Assembly (NCBI GenBank): GCA_031257795.1
Contig: JAIRNW010000011.1
Span: 1-35,344, forward strand
DNA length: 35,344 nt
Direction of reading: 5' to 3'
DNA from: Holosporales bacterium
GTDB taxonomy: Bacteria; Pseudomonadota; Alphaproteobacteria; BNTO01
The notes beneath the pieces were generated by a model that ran no database searches, was not told the origin of the DNA, and saw nothing but the letters and a program-made list of their open reading frames with translations. Below, piece by piece: positions 6,018-34,305 of the stretch. The position numbers and the translations under genes were made by a program. How positions within the stretch are numbered: position 1 is the first letter of the stretch; each line of letters opens with the position of its first letter.

Positions 6018-6243
6018 CTCTCACGCTCCGTGCACTAAACCAACACACAGGGAGTTTACTTTATGTGCGGTGGTGCGTCCAGCGCAAATTTTTTCTCAGA
6101 TACATGCGAGATACATGCGAGAAAGAAGTGCGTGATTGAAATTCCGATTTGTTTTGTTAGACTTTCCACCAGGAAGTTCCAGTCAGTTATGGAGCGCTTC
6201 TTTTAAGAGCCTACTAGCTCCGGACACAAAGAGAAATGAAAGC

Positions 6244-8589
6244 ATGAACAGCGAAGCCCATGAGTTAAACCCGCTCAGAAATAGAGAAGCGTACAAAAAG
6301 GCGTACGAAGAATCGCTGAGAGACCGAGATGGTTTTTGGTTGCGTTGTGCGAAGATCGTTGATTGGTACGCCTCCCCCTCTATCGGCGATAGGTCCAGTT
6401 TCTCCGGGAAGCCGGAGGTTAGGTGGTTCGAGGATGGAGTTCTAAACGCCTGTTACAACTGTGTTGATAGGCACGCCGAGAGAACGCCAAACAAGACTGC
6501 GATAATTTTTGAGCCAGACTGTGGCGAGCCCAAATACATTACGTACGGGGAATTATATGAAAAGGTCTGCCTCTTTGGGGATGTTTTGCTGCGAAACGGC
6601 GGGAAAAGGGAGGAGATAATAACTGTATATCTTCCGATGATCCCAGAGGCTATCTACGCGGCATTGGCGTGTGCCAGGCTGGGGATCCCTCATTCTGTGG
6701 TTTTTTCCGGATTTTCATCGACGGCGCTGGCTTGTCGGTTAGCTCAGGCCAAATCTAGGATCGTGATTACCACGCGTACTAGTTCACGCGGAGGCCGCGT
6801 TGTTTCTTTAGGGGAAAATGCGTGCAAGGCGGTTGAGGAGAATCAAAAAAAAGGGATAAATGCCGTAGAAAAGGTGCTGTTTGTTGAGGATTTTGAGTGG
6901 GCGCGCGCGGAAGCAAAATCCGACGAACCCGCGGGTTCCAGAGGGCTTAGTACATATGTCCCGCACGTTAAGTGCGTTCCGGTTAAGGCAACGGACCCTC
7001 TTTTCATATTGTATACATCTGGCTCCACAGGGACGCCGAAAGGATTGGTACATAGCACTGGGGGGTATCTGGTTTACACTGCAATTACGCAGAAACTGAT
7101 TTTTGATATGTCGGGCAGTGATCAATCCTACAATCAAAGCTGTGAAAATTATTGCGGGTCCGATTCGACGAACCAGCAAACTTTTTGTGATCCGACGCAT
7201 ACACAGTCACAAAAAGAGTTGATGGCAGGAGAAGCGACGCACAGGCGTGGAGCTGTACTCGACGTACTGCTCAAGCCGAGCATCGATTCGACGAACCAGC
7301 AAACTTTTTGTGACTGTGTGGTGTATTTTTGTACGGCGGATATAGGCTGGATCACTGGCCATTCATATGGTATTTACGGACCGCTAGCCAACGGCGCAAC
7401 CATCGTCTTGTTCCAGGGCATCCCAACGCATCCCAACGCCTCCAGGTATTGGCACATCATCAGCAAACACAAAGTCTCGATTTTTTATACCTCCCCCACG
7501 GCCCTGCGCTCCCTCCGGCGCTTAGGCGACTCTTTCATTACGGAAGCGGATGGTGTGGACTTGTCTTCGTTGCGCGTTTTGGGATCTGTTGGGGAGCCAA
7601 TAGACCCGGCGACGTGGCAGTGGTTTTTCGAGAAGATTGGCGGGGGAAGGTGCCCGATTATGGATACGTGGTGGCAGACAGAATCTGGCGGCGCGCTGAT
7701 TTGCCCGCTTCTAGAGCAGCCGCAAAAACCGGGCTGCGCGGCAAAGCCGTTTTTGGGGATTTGTGCGTGTCTGGAGAAAACGTCTGGGACAGGAGGTACG
7801 TCTGGAAAAATTAGTAACACCGAGAAAACGCAGGAAGACATCAGGCCCACCGCGGCAGAGGAGACGGGCTGCCTTTGTATTGAGAAAGCGTGGCCCGGAC
7901 AAGCAATAGGCGTCTACAACGACCTGTCGTATTTCGAGAATTATTTTCGTGACGGAAAGTTTGTCAGCGGGGACGAGGCGAGAGTTGATGAGGACGGAGA
8001 TTTTTGGCTTTTGGGACGGTTGGATGATGTCCTGAACGTCTCTGGGCACAGATTTAATTCGGCAGAGCTCGAGTATGCGGCAGTGTCACATCAGGCGATT
8101 GCGGAGGTTTGTGTCGTCGGCTTTCCTCATAACATAAAGGGACAGGGAATTTGTATTTTTGCGGTTTTGAAGGGAGGTGGCGAGGCTCGTTCTTCTACGG
8201 AAGAGTTATGTGGTTCTGAACCTCAAAAGAAACTAGCCACAGCGGTTAGTGATGAACTTGGCGCGATTCGCGATGAAGTTGTGCGGAAAATCAGAGCAGA
8301 GATTGGGCCGATCGCATCCCCTGACCTTGTGTTTTTTGTTCGTGACTTGCCGAAAACGCGATCAGGCAAGATTGTGCGGCGGATTTTGAGGAAAATCGTC
8401 GAGGCGCTGACAAAAATTGTTTTTGCTAAGAGCGAAGAAACAAAGGAGAGCACAAGTGGAAAAAGCGGCGCCGAAGATAATCAAAATATAGGTGAAATAG
8501 CTATTGATGTTGGAGATACTTCGATGCTTACCAATCCATCAGTTATAGAAGAAATAAAGTGTACGGTTTGCACAGAACTCAAGATGTAA
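6244..8589 (+). CDS. acs: Acetyl/propionyl-CoA synthetase carrying an in-frame palindromic-element insertion
   Basis: RWFEDGVLNACYNCVDRHAERTPNKTAIIFE, LFILYTSGSTGTPKGLVHSTGGYLVYTA, CTADIGWITGHSYGIYGPL, DTWWQTESGG, GRLDDVLNVSGHRFNSAELE, PKTRSGKIVRRILRKI. Probable start MNSEAHELNPLRNRE; the track ORF starts at 6136. Confidence 0.93.
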   Translation: MNSEAHELNPLRNREAYKKAYEESLRDRDGFWLRCAKIVDWYASPSIGDRSSFSGKPEVRWFEDGVLNACYNCVDRHAERTPNKTAIIFEPDCGEPKYITYGELYEKVCLFGDVLLRNGGKREEIITVYLPMIPEAIYAALACARLGIPHSVVFSGFSSTALACRLAQAKSRIVITTRTSSRGGRVVSLGENACKAVEENQKKGINAVEKVLFVEDFEWARAEAKSDEPAGSRGLSTYVPHVKCVPVKATDPLFILYTSGSTGTPKGLVHSTGGYLVYTAITQKLIFDMSGSDQSYNQSCENYCGSDSTNQQTFCDPTHTQSQKELMAGEATHRRGAVLDVLLKPSIDSTNQQTFCDCVVYFCTADIGWITGHSYGIYGPLANGATIVLFQGIPTHPNASRYWHIISKHKVSIFYTSPTALRSLRRLGDSFITEADGVDLSSLRVLGSVGEPIDPATWQWFFEKIGGGRCPIMDTWWQTESGGALICPLLEQPQKPGCAAKPFLGICACLEKTSGTGGTSGKISNTEKTQEDIRPTAAEETGCLCIEKAWPGQAIGVYNDLSYFENYFRDGKFVSGDEARVDEDGDFWLLGRLDDVLNVSGHRFNSAELEYAAVSHQAIAEVCVVGFPHNIKGQGICIFAVLKGGGEARSSTEELCGSEPQKKLATAVSDELGAIRDEVVRKIRAEIGPIASPDLVFFVRDLPKTRSGKIVRRILRKIVEALTKIVFAKSEETKESTSGKSGAEDNQNIGEIAIDVGDTSMLTNPSVIEEIKCTVCTELKM
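7201..7319 (+). repeat. Palindromic element, family 1, inserted in frame inside acs
   Basis: Perfect 16-bp terminal inverted repeat ACACAGTCACAAAAAG (7201-7216) / CTTTTTGTGACTGTGT (7304-7319); core GAGCTGTACTCGACGTACTGCTC; an extra copy of CGATTCGACGAACCAGCAAACTTTTTGTGA at 7161-7190 duplicates 7284-7313. Confidence 0.9.
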
Positions 8590-13272: not shown

Positions 13273-13396
13273 TATAGCCAATCACAAGTGAATTGTTGGC
13301 AGGAGACACGGAGCGCAACCGCCGAGCCGTACCTAAATGTACCGCTCAAGGCGAGCACTGGATCGACGAACCCACATTCACTTGTGATTGGTTATA
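13273..13396 (+). repeat. Palindromic element, family 1
   Basis: 20-bp terminal inverted repeat with one mismatch, TATAGCCAATCACAAGTGAA / TTCACTTGTGATTGGTTATA; core GTACCTAAATGTACCGCTCAAGGCGAGCACTGGATCGACGAACCCAC. Confidence 0.9.
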
Positions 13397-13587
13397 TAGC
13401 CAATCGCCCCTAATTTATAGAGCGGCTAAGGTAGCAAGTTTACGCAAAGTACCCCCTCCCATTAGGGAATCGCCCTGGCAAATTGCGTTGACAGTATCTG
13501 TTTTTTTGTTGCAAATCAGAATGCACGGGCTATAATCAGCTGTGATTTGACCCCATTTGTTTTGGAAAGCCTGGAGAGGGAAAATAT

Positions 13588-15651
13588 ATGTGCGTTAGAA
13601 AAGTTGTTACAGCCAAAAAATTACTTGGTTTTTTTTACGTTTATAGTGCTCTATCGGGCATGGTTTGCTTTGGGAGTTCTAGTGTTTTGGCGCCTGTTTT
13701 TAGAAGTTTCCAGTCTGCAACAGCTAAACGGCCTGGCGCGTCTACAAAATTGGTCAAGCGCGTATCCGGAAGGCAGCCTGGTGCGCCTGCAAAATTGGTC
13801 AAGCGCGCAGCCAGAGGACAGCCGGAATCTGCCTGGGGACGTTTCCGTGGAGAGATCGATGCCTTGCTAGAAAAAAATCTATCACCTGGGTTGTATAAAA
13901 AAATTAGTGGCAATCCTTATGGGGTTGAAATCGTCATAGGTGGCGTCGTAGTGGCCTTGTCCGTTGTTGCAGTCACTGCGTACAAAATGCTTGCTTCTGG
14001 CAAAAACGTTGTCGTCGCTGCTGAATCTGCGCCAAATTCTCCACATGTGGAAAGTGTTCAGAATATTCGAACGGTGGAGCAAGCGCAAATTCCAGTGGGT
14101 GCCGAGATGGGATCAGCCATACCAGAGTGGTTACCGCTAGGCGACCCTGCAGAAGTTGCGCATGCCTCTTCTGAAACAGAAGTTGTGCGCGCCTCTTCTG
14201 AAACAGAAGTAGCAAGCGGCCAGGCGAAACTTCCGACGCCTGAAGTAGAGCATGGACCTGTTGAACACTCCTCTTCATCAGGCAATGTCACTAAGACGGG
14301 AACAGCTATACCAGAGGCTTTACAGCCAGGCACCCCTGCAGAAGTTGTGCATGCCTCTTCTGAAACAGAAGTAGTGAGCAGCCAGGTGAAACTTCCGCCG
14401 CATGAAGTAGAGTATAGACTTGTTGAAGTCTCCTCTTCATCAGGCGGTGCCCCTGAGTTGGACTCGACATCAGGCAATGACTCTGAGTTGGACTCATCAA
14501 ATGGTGTTTCCACACCAGACGATGCTCCAGAGTCCGATTCGAACAATCCCGATCTCGCCACCACAGGACATGATAGTACGGAGGTAGCGGGCAGCCAGGT
14601 GAAACTTCCGCCGCATGAAGTAGAGTATAGACTTGTTGAAGTCTCCTCTTCATCAGGCGGTGCCCCTGAGTTGGACTCGACATCAGGCAATGACTCTGAG
14701 TTGGACTTGATGTCAAATTTAACGATGAGGCAAGTACAAAATTCAGATGGTGTCTTCTGGACGAGACCAGCTATACAACGGACTCAATGTCTCTTAGGCC
14801 CTGGCTCAAGCCGAACATTTCCCCAGTTAGACAGTGCTCTTAAGTTAAACTCGTCATCAAATGGTGTTTGCTCATCAGACAATGCCCCTGAGTTGGACTC
14901 ATCAAATGGTGCTTCCACACCAGACAATGCTCCAGGATCCAATCTGACGTGGGGTGCTATTGGTAGATGGCTCGTCGCACACATTCCTGGTGCTAGCACT
15001 GTTTTGGAAGTTTTTCTCAATCCCGATTTGGCCTTCGCTAAACATGATGGTGCGGAGGTAGGGAACAGCCCGGTGGAATCTCCGAAGCCTAAAGTAGATG
15101 AACAGGGGTTTTTCAGTTGGTTGTTTACACCAGGTAAGAAAGTGGAACCGATGCTCGTCGGTTGCAAAGTAACAAGCCAGAATGAAGGTAATTGGCATGA
15201 CAACGATAAGGGGCAGAAAGAAGCACTGCCAGCTACTGCCTCGCCAACTCCAGAACCGGTTGTAGCGGGGGGTGGGGAAATCGTAGCCCCGGGAAATAAT
15301 GGGGGCCAGCAGGATTTCTCTGAGACACCGTCATTTGCTTCTCTCGTTAACCCGTTTTCTGAGTGCGCAGAAAAGACTGATTACAATCAACGTAGTTGTT
15401 ATACAGATAAGTTTGAAGAAGACCCTGAAGGAGGAGAGCAAGCGTGTCGGTTTTTTAGGGCTGGCCTAGATACTAGTGCTGACGGGCTGTATATGACTGG
15501 TCATTGTGCAGGTCTTGGGCGTGGTGGCGAAGTAAATCATCAACAAGCTCTTGAGTTTTTTAATCGATCTCACTCACTCGGAAACTGGGCAGCTACGATT
15601 AAGATGGGCTCAGTTCCAGAGAATGAGAGACGAAAGTTCTTCAATGAGTAG
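13588..15651 (+). CDS. Large repeat-containing membrane/secreted protein with C-terminal Sel1-like segment
   Basis: 687 aa; TM segment GVEIVIGGVVVALSVVAVTAYKML; acidic Ser/Asp-rich repeats; C-terminus QACRFFRAGLDTSADGLYMTGHCAGLGRGGEVNHQQALEFFNRSHSLGNWAATIKMG resembles Sel1 repeats. Confidence 0.65.
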   Translation: MCVRKVVTAKKLLGFFYVYSALSGMVCFGSSSVLAPVFRSFQSATAKRPGASTKLVKRVSGRQPGAPAKLVKRAARGQPESAWGRFRGEIDALLEKNLSPGLYKKISGNPYGVEIVIGGVVVALSVVAVTAYKMLASGKNVVVAAESAPNSPHVESVQNIRTVEQAQIPVGAEMGSAIPEWLPLGDPAEVAHASSETEVVRASSETEVASGQAKLPTPEVEHGPVEHSSSSGNVTKTGTAIPEALQPGTPAEVVHASSETEVVSSQVKLPPHEVEYRLVEVSSSSGGAPELDSTSGNDSELDSSNGVSTPDDAPESDSNNPDLATTGHDSTEVAGSQVKLPPHEVEYRLVEVSSSSGGAPELDSTSGNDSELDLMSNLTMRQVQNSDGVFWTRPAIQRTQCLLGPGSSRTFPQLDSALKLNSSSNGVCSSDNAPELDSSNGASTPDNAPGSNLTWGAIGRWLVAHIPGASTVLEVFLNPDLAFAKHDGAEVGNSPVESPKPKVDEQGFFSWLFTPGKKVEPMLVGCKVTSQNEGNWHDNDKGQKEALPATASPTPEPVVAGGGEIVAPGNNGGQQDFSETPSFASLVNPFSECAEKTDYNQRSCYTDKFEEDPEGGEQACRFFRAGLDTSADGLYMTGHCAGLGRGGEVNHQQALEFFNRSHSLGNWAATIKMGSVPENERRKFFNE
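14378..14494 (+). repeat. 117-bp perfect direct repeat, copy 1 (39 codons)
   Basis: GCAGCCAGGTGAAACTTCCGCCGCATGAAGTAGAG...CTCTGAGTTGGACT, identical by eye to 14591-14707. Confidence 0.92.
14591..14707 (+). repeat. 117-bp perfect direct repeat, copy 2
   Basis: Identical to 14378-14494; offset 213 bp, in frame. Confidence 0.92.
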
Positions 15652-19879: not shown

Positions 19880-20014
19880 ATGAAGCGTACATTTCAACCA
19901 AGTATTCTAGTGAGAAAGCGGCGGCACGGCTTTAGAGCCAGGATGTCTACACCAGGTGGGCGCCTTGTGTTGTCCGCGCGTAGGGCCAAGGGGCGGCGGC
20001 GTTTGGCTGCGTGA
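19880..20014 (+). CDS. rpmH: 50S ribosomal protein L34
   Basis: [44 protein letters not shown] (44 aa); not in ORF track because of size. Confidence 0.97.
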
Positions 20015-20021
20015 TTTAATT

Positions 20022-20834
20022 TTGAAGCTCGTTACATTAAGAAAACGCTCCGACTTCCTTGCGATGGCGAAGTGGGGTGTTTTCATCCGCGGAGGCGGAG
20101 TTCTCTTGCAGATTTGCAGGGCTCGTTTCGTGCCGAGGAGGCGTGCTGCCTGGAGCGCGGGTGGAGGTGCTTTTGAGAAAGGAGATTCTGAAACCGAGCC
20201 GCCTCTGCTTTTTTACGGGATAACAGCCAGCAAGAAAGTAGGAAATGCAGTAATCAGGAATCGCGCCAAACGCCGCCTCTTGGCACTCGTTAGGACGGAA
20301 CTGGCTCTGAATGTCGAGCAAAACGGGCATGGTGCCGGTGAGGCCCACTCAACTTCCCTGCCAACCCCCGCATGCGCTTGGCACAACCCCCAGACTTGCC
20401 CAGTCACCGAAAGAATTGAAGGCAGAGAACATGTAGTGCAACGTACTGCTCAATCCGAGCAGCACCGGGCTTCAGGCAAAGCCGCCGACTTTGTTGTGGA
20501 GCCGTTCGACGAACCCGCAAACTTTCGAGGGCTGGGTATAAGTAAAAATTTTGTTTTCTTGTCACAAAAAACAATAGAAGGAATTCCGTGGGGCTCCAGA
20601 AAAAAAGCAGACTTTGTCGGGGGCCCGGTTCGACGACCCAACAAACTTTTGTGGACTGGGTATAGAGGACTGGCTTTCGTTTTTATTGCGACAAAACAAA
20701 CCCCAGAATTAGAGTGGAAAAAGCTCAAAGGCGAGTTTTGCCGAGAAATTCGTGAAGGTCTTTGTAAGATAGGGCAGGGGAAAGACTCATTTCGAAAGCC
20801 TCAGAATCAAAGCTTTAGCCGTATTCGCGGCTAG
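20022..20834 (+). CDS. rnpA: Ribonuclease P protein component, enlarged by in-frame palindromic insertions
   Basis: LKLVTLRKRSDFLAMAKWG...LLFYGITASKKVGNAVIRNRAKRRLLALV...LAFVFIATKQTPELEWKKLKGEF; immediately downstream of rpmH; TTG start at 20022 proposed (track ORF begins 19956, overlapping rpmH). Confidence 0.9.
   Translation: MKLVTLRKRSDFLAMAKWGVFIRGGGVLLQICRARFVPRRRAAWSAGGGAFEKGDSETEPPLLFYGITASKKVGNAVIRNRAKRRLLALVRTELALNVEQNGHGAGEAHSTSLPTPACAWHNPQTCPVTERIEGREHVVQRTAQSEQHRASGKAADFVVEPFDEPANFRGLGISKNFVFLSQKTIEGIPWGSRKKADFVGGPVRRPNKLLWTGYRGLAFVFIATKQTPELEWKKLKGEFCREIREGLCKIGQGKDSFRKPQNQSFSRIRG
20399..20536 (+). repeat. Palindromic element, family 1, in frame within rnpA (copy 1)
   Basis: Arms CCCAGTCACCGAAAG / CTTTCGAGGGCTGGG; core CGTACTGCTCAATCCGAGCAGCACCGGGCTTCAGGCAAAGCCGCCGACTTTGTTGTGGAGCCGTTCGACGAACCCGCAAAC. 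Confidence 0.85.
20560..20660 (+). repeat. Palindromic element, family 1, shorter copy within rnpA (copy 2)
   Basis: CTTGTCACAAAAAACAA left arm; GCAGACTTTGTCGGGGGCCCGGTTCGACGACCCAACAAACTTTTGTGGACTGGG right half; GTAC apex missing. Confidence 0.75.
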
Positions 20835-20903
20835 TTTTCTCACCCCCGGATTTCGCACCGTATTAACAAAAGTTTTCCAGAAAGAACACGATGTGTATAT
20901 ACT

Positions 20904-20991
20904 CATCTCACCTGGCTCTCAGGAATTTTTTCTAAGTGAATCGCGGTCTACGAGTCGAAAAAATCCTGGTTTTCATGTTCGAAATGTATAG
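20904..20991 (-). repeat. Family 3 repeat, copy 1
   Basis: Minus strand CTATACATTTCGAACATGAAAACCAGGATTTTTTCGACTCG...CCTGAGAGCCAGGTGAGATGAG, closely similar to 28256-28346. Confidence 0.85.
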
Positions 20992-26279: not shown

Positions 26280-27290
26280 TTGTCGCTCTTTTCTTCTTGG
26301 AGGATTTTCGTACTGTTGCAGGATGTAAGGAGGAAGAAGGTGAGAAGGTTTGTTTTTATTTTTGCGTTTGTCTCAGTGTTGTCAGGTTCTTTTGAGGTAG
26401 GATTGGCTTCCTCCCATCTAAGGCGCGTTCAGTCAGAATCTGCGCGACGTTCGCCTGGCAGCCCAGAGGATTCGTCTCGTCTAAGGAGGCGGACTCAGTC
26501 AGAACCTGCGCGACGTTCGCCTATACTGGACGGCAGCCCAGAGGCTTCCTCTCGTCTAAGGCGAACTCAGTCAGAATCTGCGAGACAACACCAATCTCCT
26601 GTAATGAGGTGGTGTGGTCGCCATGCTAAATGTATCTGGTTCTCTGTAACAGCGGTAGCCGTTGTGGCGGCTTACATTTGGGGAAGCCGCCTCGGGAAAA
26701 GTAGTGCCCAATGTCATTTTACAGGGGCAGAAGGAAATATAGAGATCAACAATGAAATTGCTGGATTGGAAATAGAAAACGCGTCTATGCAACATGAGCT
26801 CGATAGCTGTCAAAGGCAGAAAGAAACAAATAGCTGCCCGAAAGAACGAACATTTGGGGAAGAAACACCGTATGGAGAGTTGTGCACTCCTTATGCTTGC
26901 TTTGTTTTAGAGGAAATTCCGGAAGAGTTGGGCTTGGAAAACGTTCCGTTAGAAGAATTTCCTGATGCACTCAACAAGCAAGCGAAGTCGTTAAAAGAAG
27001 ATTTCCTGAAATACAATACCGAACGTGCTCCATTAGAAAGAGAGATACATGACAACAAGAAACGGGATGGAGAAGTAGCTGTGGTGATGAATAATCTTTC
27101 AGCGCTTAAATCAAGGAAACTGTCGGCTGAAAATGAAATAGAAAGGGTACGGGAGGAGAGCGCTAAGTTTCAAGAGTGGTTGAATAGTTGCCGTAGGACG
27201 ACAGGATTGATACTCCCTAGCTGCAAACCATGTGAGTGCCGATCGTGTCAGGAGTGTGATTGTTCGCAAAGCTCAAAAAAGGAGTTGTAG
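26280..27290 (+). CDS. Membrane coiled-coil protein with Cys-rich tail (paralog A)
   Basis: Leader, LRR(R)TQSE(S/P)ARR repeats, TM, coiled coil, C-terminal SCKPCECRSCQECDCSQSS. Confidence 0.6.
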   Translation: MSLFSSWRIFVLLQDVRRKKVRRFVFIFAFVSVLSGSFEVGLASSHLRRVQSESARRSPGSPEDSSRLRRRTQSEPARRSPILDGSPEASSRLRRTQSESARQHQSPVMRWCGRHAKCIWFSVTAVAVVAAYIWGSRLGKSSAQCHFTGAEGNIEINNEIAGLEIENASMQHELDSCQRQKETNSCPKERTFGEETPYGELCTPYACFVLEEIPEELGLENVPLEEFPDALNKQAKSLKEDFLKYNTERAPLEREIHDNKKRDGEVAVVMNNLSALKSRKLSAENEIERVREESAKFQEWLNSCRRTTGLILPSCKPCECRSCQECDCSQSSKKEL

Positions 27291-28255: not shown

Positions 28256-28346
28256 CTATACATTTCGAACCTGAAAACCAGGATTTTTCTCGACTCGGAT
28301 GCCGCAATTCATCTGTGGGAAACACCTGAGAGTCAGGGGAGATGGG
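28256..28346 (+). repeat. Family 3 repeat, copy 2
   Basis: CTATACATTTCGAACCTGAAAACCAGGATTTTTCTCGACTCGGATGCCGCAATTCATCTGTGGGAAACACCTGAGAGTCAGGGGAGATGGG. Confidence 0.85.
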
Positions 28347-28435
28347 TTTTGCAATATAATTTTGTGCTTGCGACACGATTCCCCAATTTGGCATAATCCA
28401 GCCCAGCGCGTTGTTCTTTCTTGTGGTTTTCCGTG

Positions 28436-31174: not shown

Positions 31175-31175
<1 letters not shown>

Positions 31176-31312
31176 GAACCCGTTGACATAATGATTTAAA
31201 TTGGTCTTTTCTGCGTCGAATCCGGTTCGAAGCTAATGTACGTTTAGTACACTCCGCTTCTGCTCTCCGTTTCTCCTGAAAAATCCTCAATTAAATCTTA
31301 TGTCAACGGGTT
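31175..31312 (+). repeat. Palindromic element, family 2, copy 2, abutting obgE stop
   Basis: Left arm AGAACCCGTTGACATAATGATTTAAA, right arm TTAAATCTTATGTCAACGGGTT; apex GTACGTTTAGTAC. Confidence 0.9.
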
Positions 31313-32799: not shown

Positions 32800-34305
32800 A
32801 TGGTTATGCGTTTTTGTTATAAGAAGTTACTGAAGCACGCTTCGATCGGTAGCTGTGTGTTATGTAGTGTGTTTTGTTGTCAGAGTTTGTTCGCTGGGCT
32901 TTGGGGGAGCAAAGCGTCAAGTCAGGCGAACGTAGAAGCGGGAAATACAGCTCAACAGCAACAAGTTCATGAAGGAATTGTTAAACCAAATCAGCACACT
33001 GCAGCTAACGGCAAAAAGTCTGCGAGTGGTACAATGCCTCAATCGTCCTATCAAAGAAACCTAGGGGCCCCAGTTATAGCAGAATACGATGTGTACTCAC
33101 GGCCATTAGATCATTATAGGTCTGGTGGGAAAGGAGCAAATGGAATTGTTAAACCAAATCAGTTCACTGCAGCTAACGGCAAAAAGTCTGCGAGTGGTAC
33201 AATGCCTCAATCGTTCCATCAAAGAAACCTATTGGCCCCAGTTATAGCAGAATACGGTGTGTACTCACGGCCATTAGATTTTCTTATGCCTGGTCCGAAA
33301 GGAATGTCCGAATGTGAACGCGCTCATTACTCTAAAGGAAGGAAACGGAATAGCTTGTCGAGTAAAAATGCAAAGAATAACGAGATTCACAGCCTCCGAG
33401 AGTTATGCAAAGGATGTGAATGTCCAGAGGAAGTTCCGCTGGTAAAGAACAAGCCAATTTATCAGCCTAAGCCACATGGTTGGGATAAACAGCAACGACG
33501 AGTCGATGAAGAGTTTCCGGATGAAGAGTTTCTGGATGAAGAGTTTCCGGGGGATCCTTTGGTGTCGCAAATTGGAAGCGCCAAGGCTAAAGCGCCAGAT
33601 GTTACTGGACCTCTTTCGAAACCTTCAAATGATGATAAATGTTCGCCTGAGTCTCCATATGCGGCAAAGCAACTTCGTATAGCTAGAAGTATTGCAGAGA
33701 GGCAGCGTGATACAGCGAGGCGTGTTGCAAGGAAACTGGCAGAACAGCAAATGGAACGGACAGGGCGGCCGAAGAAAAAGGACACGCCTAAGTCGGAGCA
33801 CGTCCCATCCCCTAAAGAACTGCGTGACTCGGACGGAAGGGCAAACGCTAAGGGAATAAAGGGACGGTCGATAGTATATACTGCCCCGCTAGATGTCGAT
33901 GGCCGCGGATTAGGTCCTCATCATGATGGCGATGATCGCAGTGGCTATACTGCCCCGCTAGATGTTAATGGCAGCGGATTAGGTCCTCGTCATGATGGCG
34001 ATGATCACAGTAGCTGTACTGCCCCGCTAGATGTCGACGGCAGCGGATTAGGTCCTCGTCATGATGGCGATGATCGCAGTGGCTATACTGCCCCGCTAGG
34101 TGTTGATGGCAGCGGATTAGGTCCTCGTCATGGTGGCGATGATCACAGTGGCTGTTTAGATGAAAAGGAGACTGCTGAAGATTCACAAAAACCAACATTG
34201 TTTCCTTTTGATCCTATTATTGCGCCTCGTGCAACAAGTATAAAAGCCGCAAAGCGTGGCCAGGAGGCTTCAACAGGCCCTTGGAGCAAAATCACTTCGA
34301 AGTAA
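32800..34305 (+). CDS. Secreted repeat protein of unknown function
   Basis: Leader KHASIGSCVLCSVFCCQSLFAG; two ~46-aa repeats (GIVKPNQ.TAANGKKSASGTMPQS..QRNL.APVIAEY.VYSRPLD); four 23-aa C-terminal repeats. Confidence 0.65.
   Translation: MVMRFCYKKLLKHASIGSCVLCSVFCCQSLFAGLWGSKASSQANVEAGNTAQQQQVHEGIVKPNQHTAANGKKSASGTMPQSSYQRNLGAPVIAEYDVYSRPLDHYRSGGKGANGIVKPNQFTAANGKKSASGTMPQSFHQRNLLAPVIAEYGVYSRPLDFLMPGPKGMSECERAHYSKGRKRNSLSSKNAKNNEIHSLRELCKGCECPEEVPLVKNKPIYQPKPHGWDKQQRRVDEEFPDEEFLDEEFPGDPLVSQIGSAKAKAPDVTGPLSKPSNDDKCSPESPYAAKQLRIARSIAERQRDTARRVARKLAEQQMERTGRPKKKDTPKSEHVPSPKELRDSDGRANAKGIKGRSIVYTAPLDVDGRGLGPHHDGDDRSGYTAPLDVNGSGLGPRHDGDDHSSCTAPLDVDGSGLGPRHDGDDRSGYTAPLGVDGSGLGPRHGGDDHSGCLDEKETAEDSQKPTLFPFDPIIAPRATSIKAAKRGQEASTGPWSKITSK
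32974..33279 (+). repeat. Pair of ~138-bp in-frame direct repeats (period 168 bp)
   Basis: GGAATTGTTAAACCAAATCAG...GTGTACTCACGGCCATTAGAT at 32974 and 33142. Confidence 0.88.
33877..34152 (+). repeat. Four tandem 69-bp repeats (23 codons)
   Basis: Units start at 33877, 33946, 34015, 34084: TATACTGCCCCGCTAGATGTCGATGGCAGCGGATTAGGTCCTCGTCATGATGGCGATGATCGCAGTGGC. Confidence 0.93.

Follow-up and report, generated by a model that had tools for sequence, protein, structure and literature searches.

How does the gene of a small essential RNA-binding protein come to carry copies of a palindromic repeat in its reading frame, and would its product still work with them? The question is raised by rnpA, the gene of the RNase P protein, in a Holosporales bacterium (GenBank assembly GCA_031257795.1, contig JAIRNW010000011.1); "the window" refers below to the whole stretch of DNA that was analysed, 35,344 nucleotides making up one contig of a single, fragmented assembly (0.91 Mb, 86 contigs, 89% complete). 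A preliminary description of the window had proposed that rnpA carries two in-frame palindromic insertions. Protein-coding palindromic elements have so far been a Rickettsia curiosity, and both the survival of the proteins that carry them and the spread of the elements are unsettled matters. We argue, with a probability of roughly 85%, that rnpA has received selfish insertions of the Rickettsia palindromic element (RPE) type, which would be tolerated in a peripheral loop of RnpA and kept in the product, the RNase P protein remaining functional.

Results

The rnpA gene occupies positions 20022..20834 of the forward strand and is open throughout its 813 nt, giving a product of 270 aa, in agreement with the length of about 270 aa given in the preliminary description; the TTG at 20022 was assumed to be the start, and the true start may differ. 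Its usual upstream neighbour rpmH (ribosomal protein L34) lies directly before it as a 44-aa ORF at 19880..20014 on the same strand. The product matches Pfam PF00825 (E 1.3e-8, 35.3 bits, cut-off 22.3) and scores 32 bits against the NCBIfam rnpA model TIGR00188, under the model cut-off of 38.35. A genome-wide search for a second rnpA found none, the window gene being the only PF00825 match, and no frameshift was found in it. The features by which an RnpA is recognised, the SKKVGNAV...RNRxKRR motif and the C-terminal strand-helix, are present: the core YGITASKKVGNAVIRNRAKRRLLALV is intact at 20214..20291 (+), with the RNR motif at 20256-20276 and the core motif YGITASKKVGNAVIRNRAKRRL unbroken, and the C-terminal strand and helix LAFVFIATKQTPELEWKKLKGEFCREIREGL at 20670..20762 (+) are intact in alignment with relatives. 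The earlier proposal that the RNR region and the C-terminal strand flank the extra residues is borne out by this alignment, and no core motif is disrupted by either element piece. A single-sequence AlphaFold run on RnpA gave a pLDDT of 35, too low to be informative.

The two insertions are real, and can be described more exactly as one complete copy of an element and the right half of another. Copy 1, at 20398..20540 (+), is complete and of the type that we call D, encodes PVTERIEGREHVVQRTAQSEQHRASGKAADFVVEPFDEPANFRGLGI, and matches positions 4-163 of an nhmmer model of the element with E 5e-38; this model was built from 20 full-length copies, copy 1 among them, but copy 1 was also recovered independently of the model by plain blastn with a hand-made consensus and with other genomic copies. 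Copy 2, at 20590..20664 (+), has the right half only, encodes about GSRKKADFVGGPVRRPNKLLWTGY, and matches model positions 89-163 with E 1.1e-12. Both pieces are translated in frame with the gene and together account for about 73 residues. Chance origin of these repeats is excluded because dozens of homologous copies exist elsewhere in the genome. The coordinates originally proposed, 20399-20536 and 20560-20660, are close to ours, except that 20560-20589 is not element sequence. This segment was considered as the left part of copy 2, since its TCACAAAAA resembles one form of the left end of the element. That reading was rejected, because the match to the profile begins only at 20590 and because the segment codes for FVFLSQKTIEGIP, a motif found throughout the order. 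The segment belongs to a native, order-specific stretch, FVFLSQKTIEGIPW, at 20550..20591 (+) between both copies, which is conserved in the RnpA of the order. In copy 1 about 20 bp of the centre are deleted, including a TAA that the consensus has in that frame, which fits pressure for an open frame, as a single case and without amounting to proof; copy 2, compared with copy 1, changes frame internally. Folded as RNA, copy 1 is more stable than 200 of 200 shuffled sequences (-54 kcal/mol, z -3.8), and the half copy is unremarkable (z -1.0). Remnants of another form of the element, A, were suspected by eye at the 3' end of rnpA (20790-20816) and in the rnpA of a sister genus (G006, 'TDFEEFCKKS'); neither gave a blastn match and neither is claimed.

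Searches with blast, with the purpose-built nhmmer model and for repeats place these copies in an abundant mosaic superfamily of this genome, of which 96 copies of at least 55 nt were counted in the sampled loci, the scope of this census; they stand both within genes and in the stretches between them. The A form is 146 bp long, encodes SKPSKSEFWEGDTEHRSGAYLDVREHSSTGSTYPKTDFEEFGKRS and matches the NCBIfam model RPE1 (TIGR01045, Rickettsia palindromic element 1). The B form is about 125 bp with near-perfect terminal repeats, as in the copy at 13273..13398 (+), which has near-perfect terminal inverted repeats and an RNA fold of z -8.2. The D form, the type found in rnpA, is about 164 bp with some 40 bp extra in its right part, and most of its copies start and finish with TATA. 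A DNA core is common to the three: A and D align directly at 80% over 54 nt (E 1.4e-5), and a chain through the B form (E 1e-11 and 1e-13) joins A to B at 75% over 85 nt and B to D at 79% over 86 nt. Palindromic elements of roughly 100-165 bp with terminal inverted repeats are seen at 13273-13398, in the RNase P RNA gene (rnpB) and in copy 1 of rnpA. RPE1 matches occur at 101 places in the genome, most of them over cut-off (an A form in an AddB-like protein has E 2.5e-16 and 59 bits against a cut-off of 30), and many stand at contig ends, as expected because repeats break assemblies. For the rnpA-type element itself, neither RnpA nor the consensus, tested in three frames, matched TIGR01045. 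Three further genera of the order have RPE1 matches, 29 of them in one genus; the other genomes of a class-wide sample of 290 gave one weak match (G137), which is alone in its family and yielded nothing more. An RPE1-like peptide sought in named plasmids gave no match. The sister genus G006 has an RPE1-like type of its own, VAKVSNFEEFLGAHEAQNRSVLDVREDSSIGATPKLPKERSF, which lies within long open frames or at their ends (L120, L131, L139, L141, L143).

Other repeats are also present in the window. A different palindromic family of 93 bp, TATACTCATCTCACC..., lies just downstream of rnpA at 20898..20990 (+), with a second copy at 28257-28347 and similar sequence beside several other loci. Tandem or near-tandem repeats, with units of 69 bp, 168 bp and others, were noted at 33879-34154, 32974-33303, 26405-26586 and 14105-14943, as was a dispersed palindromic pair (1867-2015 and 31175-31295; 84 nt, 90% alike), flanked by inverted arms and weakly related to the A form.

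Tolerance of the element is not peculiar to RnpA, as members of its superfamily stand in frame in numerous other proteins. Within open frames with at least 30 codons on each side lie 29 of the 96 sampled copies, although some of the shorter frames among these will be due to chance. Genes with an in-frame element and Pfam or NCBIfam support include those for acetyl-CoA synthetase (AcsA), RecJ, IleS, GltX, TsaC/Sua5, a pyridine-nucleotide reductase and FabH. In these the host protein can be recognised on both sides of the element, which in IleS lies near the C-terminal part. In the window itself, element pieces stand in frame at 7128..7319 (+) in the AMP-binding domain region of acetyl-CoA synthetase (ORF 6136-8586). 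MurF, by inspection, has an in-frame A form. The boundaries are clean in FabH, in which 39 residues that are absent in six relatives coincide exactly with the element and conserved sequence runs up to both edges. The peptide encoded by the rnpA element recurs in GltX, FabH, TsaC, the pyridine-nucleotide reductase and the AddB-like protein, and is also in frame in RecJ and at the N-terminus of EF-P (EF-P and AddB being named by inspection, the AddB-like protein having no Pfam match). Four or five element pieces, including an RPE1 match, lie in one frame of the AddB-like protein (L011 2-2194).

That the same peptide stands in so many unrelated proteins means that one protease could serve all of them, and the insert in RnpA has a complete secondary-structure element on either side of it, so that a cut there could be tolerated. 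The element residues might then be removed after translation, leaving a mature RnpA free of the insert, or RnpA might be cut into two pieces that stay associated. We consider such processing very unlikely: no conserved cleavage motif or intein-like motif was noticed, and the peptide varies in length, and sometimes in frame, among the genic copies, which argues against a recognised processing signal. Retention of the insert in the product, as part of tolerated selfish insertions, is the reading that we prefer.

The site of insertion was extended in this order irrespective of the element. The RNR motif and the last strand are 25 residues apart in ten reference proteins of the class (an eleventh value was dropped because the automatic pattern misfired), 57-88 in six other genomes of the order and 140 in the window RnpA, so that every relative measured exceeds the class norm by 32-63 residues. 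The preliminary description had attributed more than 100 extra residues largely to the elements, which is roughly right: the surplus over the class norm is 115 residues, of which about 73 are element and about 42 belong to the non-mobile extension found across the order. Less the element, the window value is 140 - 73 = 67, within the range of the relatives. Within the extension, past the RNR helix and ahead of the last strand, eight of eight RnpA proteins of the order (L001, L032-L038) have a motif, LS(K/R/Q/N)(K/R)(T/S), with F in place of L in one; it reads LSQKT in the window protein. The complete copy stands before this motif and the right half after it, and the two insertions are accordingly not at one surface position, as had been supposed, but are separated by a conserved motif within an already extended loop. 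The order-specific extension possibly provides an extra contact to RNA. No element match was found inside the rnpA of seven other genomes of the order; a further member, G002 (74% complete), has no rnpA match at all.

These comparisons also bear on a second alternative, that rnpA is a decaying pseudogene and RNase P functions with its RNA only or uses a different protein. In favour of decay are the small, repeat-rich genome and a Pfam score that, at 35 bits, is low for the class; however, the element-free relatives score almost as low, at 32-43 bits, so that the weak score reflects the order. An 813-nt frame that stays open across two element copies, core motifs and an LSQKT motif that agree with relatives, and a genome search that found no alternative rnpA all argue against decay, as does the presence of an RNase P RNA gene of class A with its core (L058, contig 28 of G000; 244 bits). 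We regard decay as highly improbable, and a working protein with a tolerated insert as the better account of the same observations.

The RNase P RNA gene contains an element of its own. A complete B-type copy lies at L058 378-498, between the 3' strands of P2 and P4, a site that we take, from the layout of class A RNase P RNA, to be the position of helix P19. A hairpin at the P19 position is normal in many class A RNAs. The element is predicted to fold as a long hairpin (-55 kcal/mol, z -7.2). In relatives the same position has an unrelated insert in one case (L057) and nothing in another; two genomes of the order gave no RNase P RNA match, and these absences, like that of rnpA from one genome, presumably reflect incompleteness. 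A second, different element lies just past the 3' end of the RNase P RNA gene (L058 213-318). Judged from their genes, the two RNase P subunits each have an element of this superfamily, at sites that are predicted to be peripheral. Co-option, in which the basic peptide or the RNA hairpin would aid RNase P and the hairpin would serve as helix P19, draws on this coincidence, on the hairpin common at that site in class A and on the unrelated insert in L057, but is scarcely credible given that an element so abundant in many unrelated genes needs no special cause to enter RNase P twice and that other relatives have no insert in either subunit.

Discussion

The course of events that best accounts for tolerated selfish insertion in rnpA would begin with an RnpA loop that, in this order, had been long and variable beforehand. 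Into this loop a palindromic element of the RPE superfamily, resembling a MITE and having no gene of its own, is proposed to have entered; the second, partial copy may derive from another insertion or from recombination with the first. Tolerance would follow because the site is a loop of naturally varying length, and frame and RnpA core would have survived because the insertions came after the RNR helix and before the last strand, and introduced no in-frame stop, the stop of the consensus having been lost from copy 1 with its central segment. The insert most likely stays in the mRNA and is translated as a peripheral and probably flexible loop of an enzyme that would still work. The elements themselves are best regarded as selfish and tolerated, probably neutral for the host protein and without a part in enzyme function.

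On balance, and with some reserve, we favour the wider view that RPE1 is not private to Rickettsia, and that its superfamily has multiplied to 100 copies or more in another order, one whose genomes are reduced, where it behaves as a protein-coding parasite and, in one lineage, has reached both RNase P subunits. With its hundred or so RPE1 matches and numerous clean in-frame insertions, this second order supplies data independent of those from Rickettsia. The two RNase P genes are in addition a testable case, in which a small essential RNA-binding protein and the ribozyme that it serves both house the parasite, and insert-free relatives are natural controls. The kind of mechanism is known already; the host order and the double RNase P insertion appear to be unreported; the scale in the host order and the mosaic D form also appear to be new. 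A literature search for an RPE in rnpB or rnpA found no relevant paper, and earlier reports may exist.

The nearest known system is that of Rickettsia, in which RPEs of about 150 bp lie in frame within genes (PMC10969869); a further case of an in-frame palindromic element is also on record (PMC5656822). The elements described here resemble Rickettsia RPEs, and RPE1 in particular, in being palindromic, about 100-165 bp long, present in many copies and in frame in unrelated genes, and one subfamily of this genome matches RPE1 (TIGR01045) well over cut-off. Unlike Rickettsia RPEs, they are hosted by a separate order, of which one family with nine genomes was compared; that it is not the order of Rickettsia is our assumption from the GTDB Rickettsiales being far larger than one family of nine genomes. 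Unlike RPE1, the copies in rnpA are mosaic, with other terminal repeats, about 40 bp of extra internal sequence and another reading frame. Ogata and colleagues are said to have described protein-coding palindromic repeats of Wolbachia in 2005, which by that description would be similar as in-frame palindromes in an intracellular alphaproteobacterium. Heterocyst-forming cyanobacteria have short repeats (STRR) inside rnpB, in a part of that gene that is likewise peripheral, but these are short tandem repeats in other bacteria rather than a palindrome common to the RNA gene and a protein gene. Finally, in their terminal inverted repeats, lack of an own transposase and high copy number the elements are like MITEs, for which occasional in-frame fusions are known (PMC10969869).
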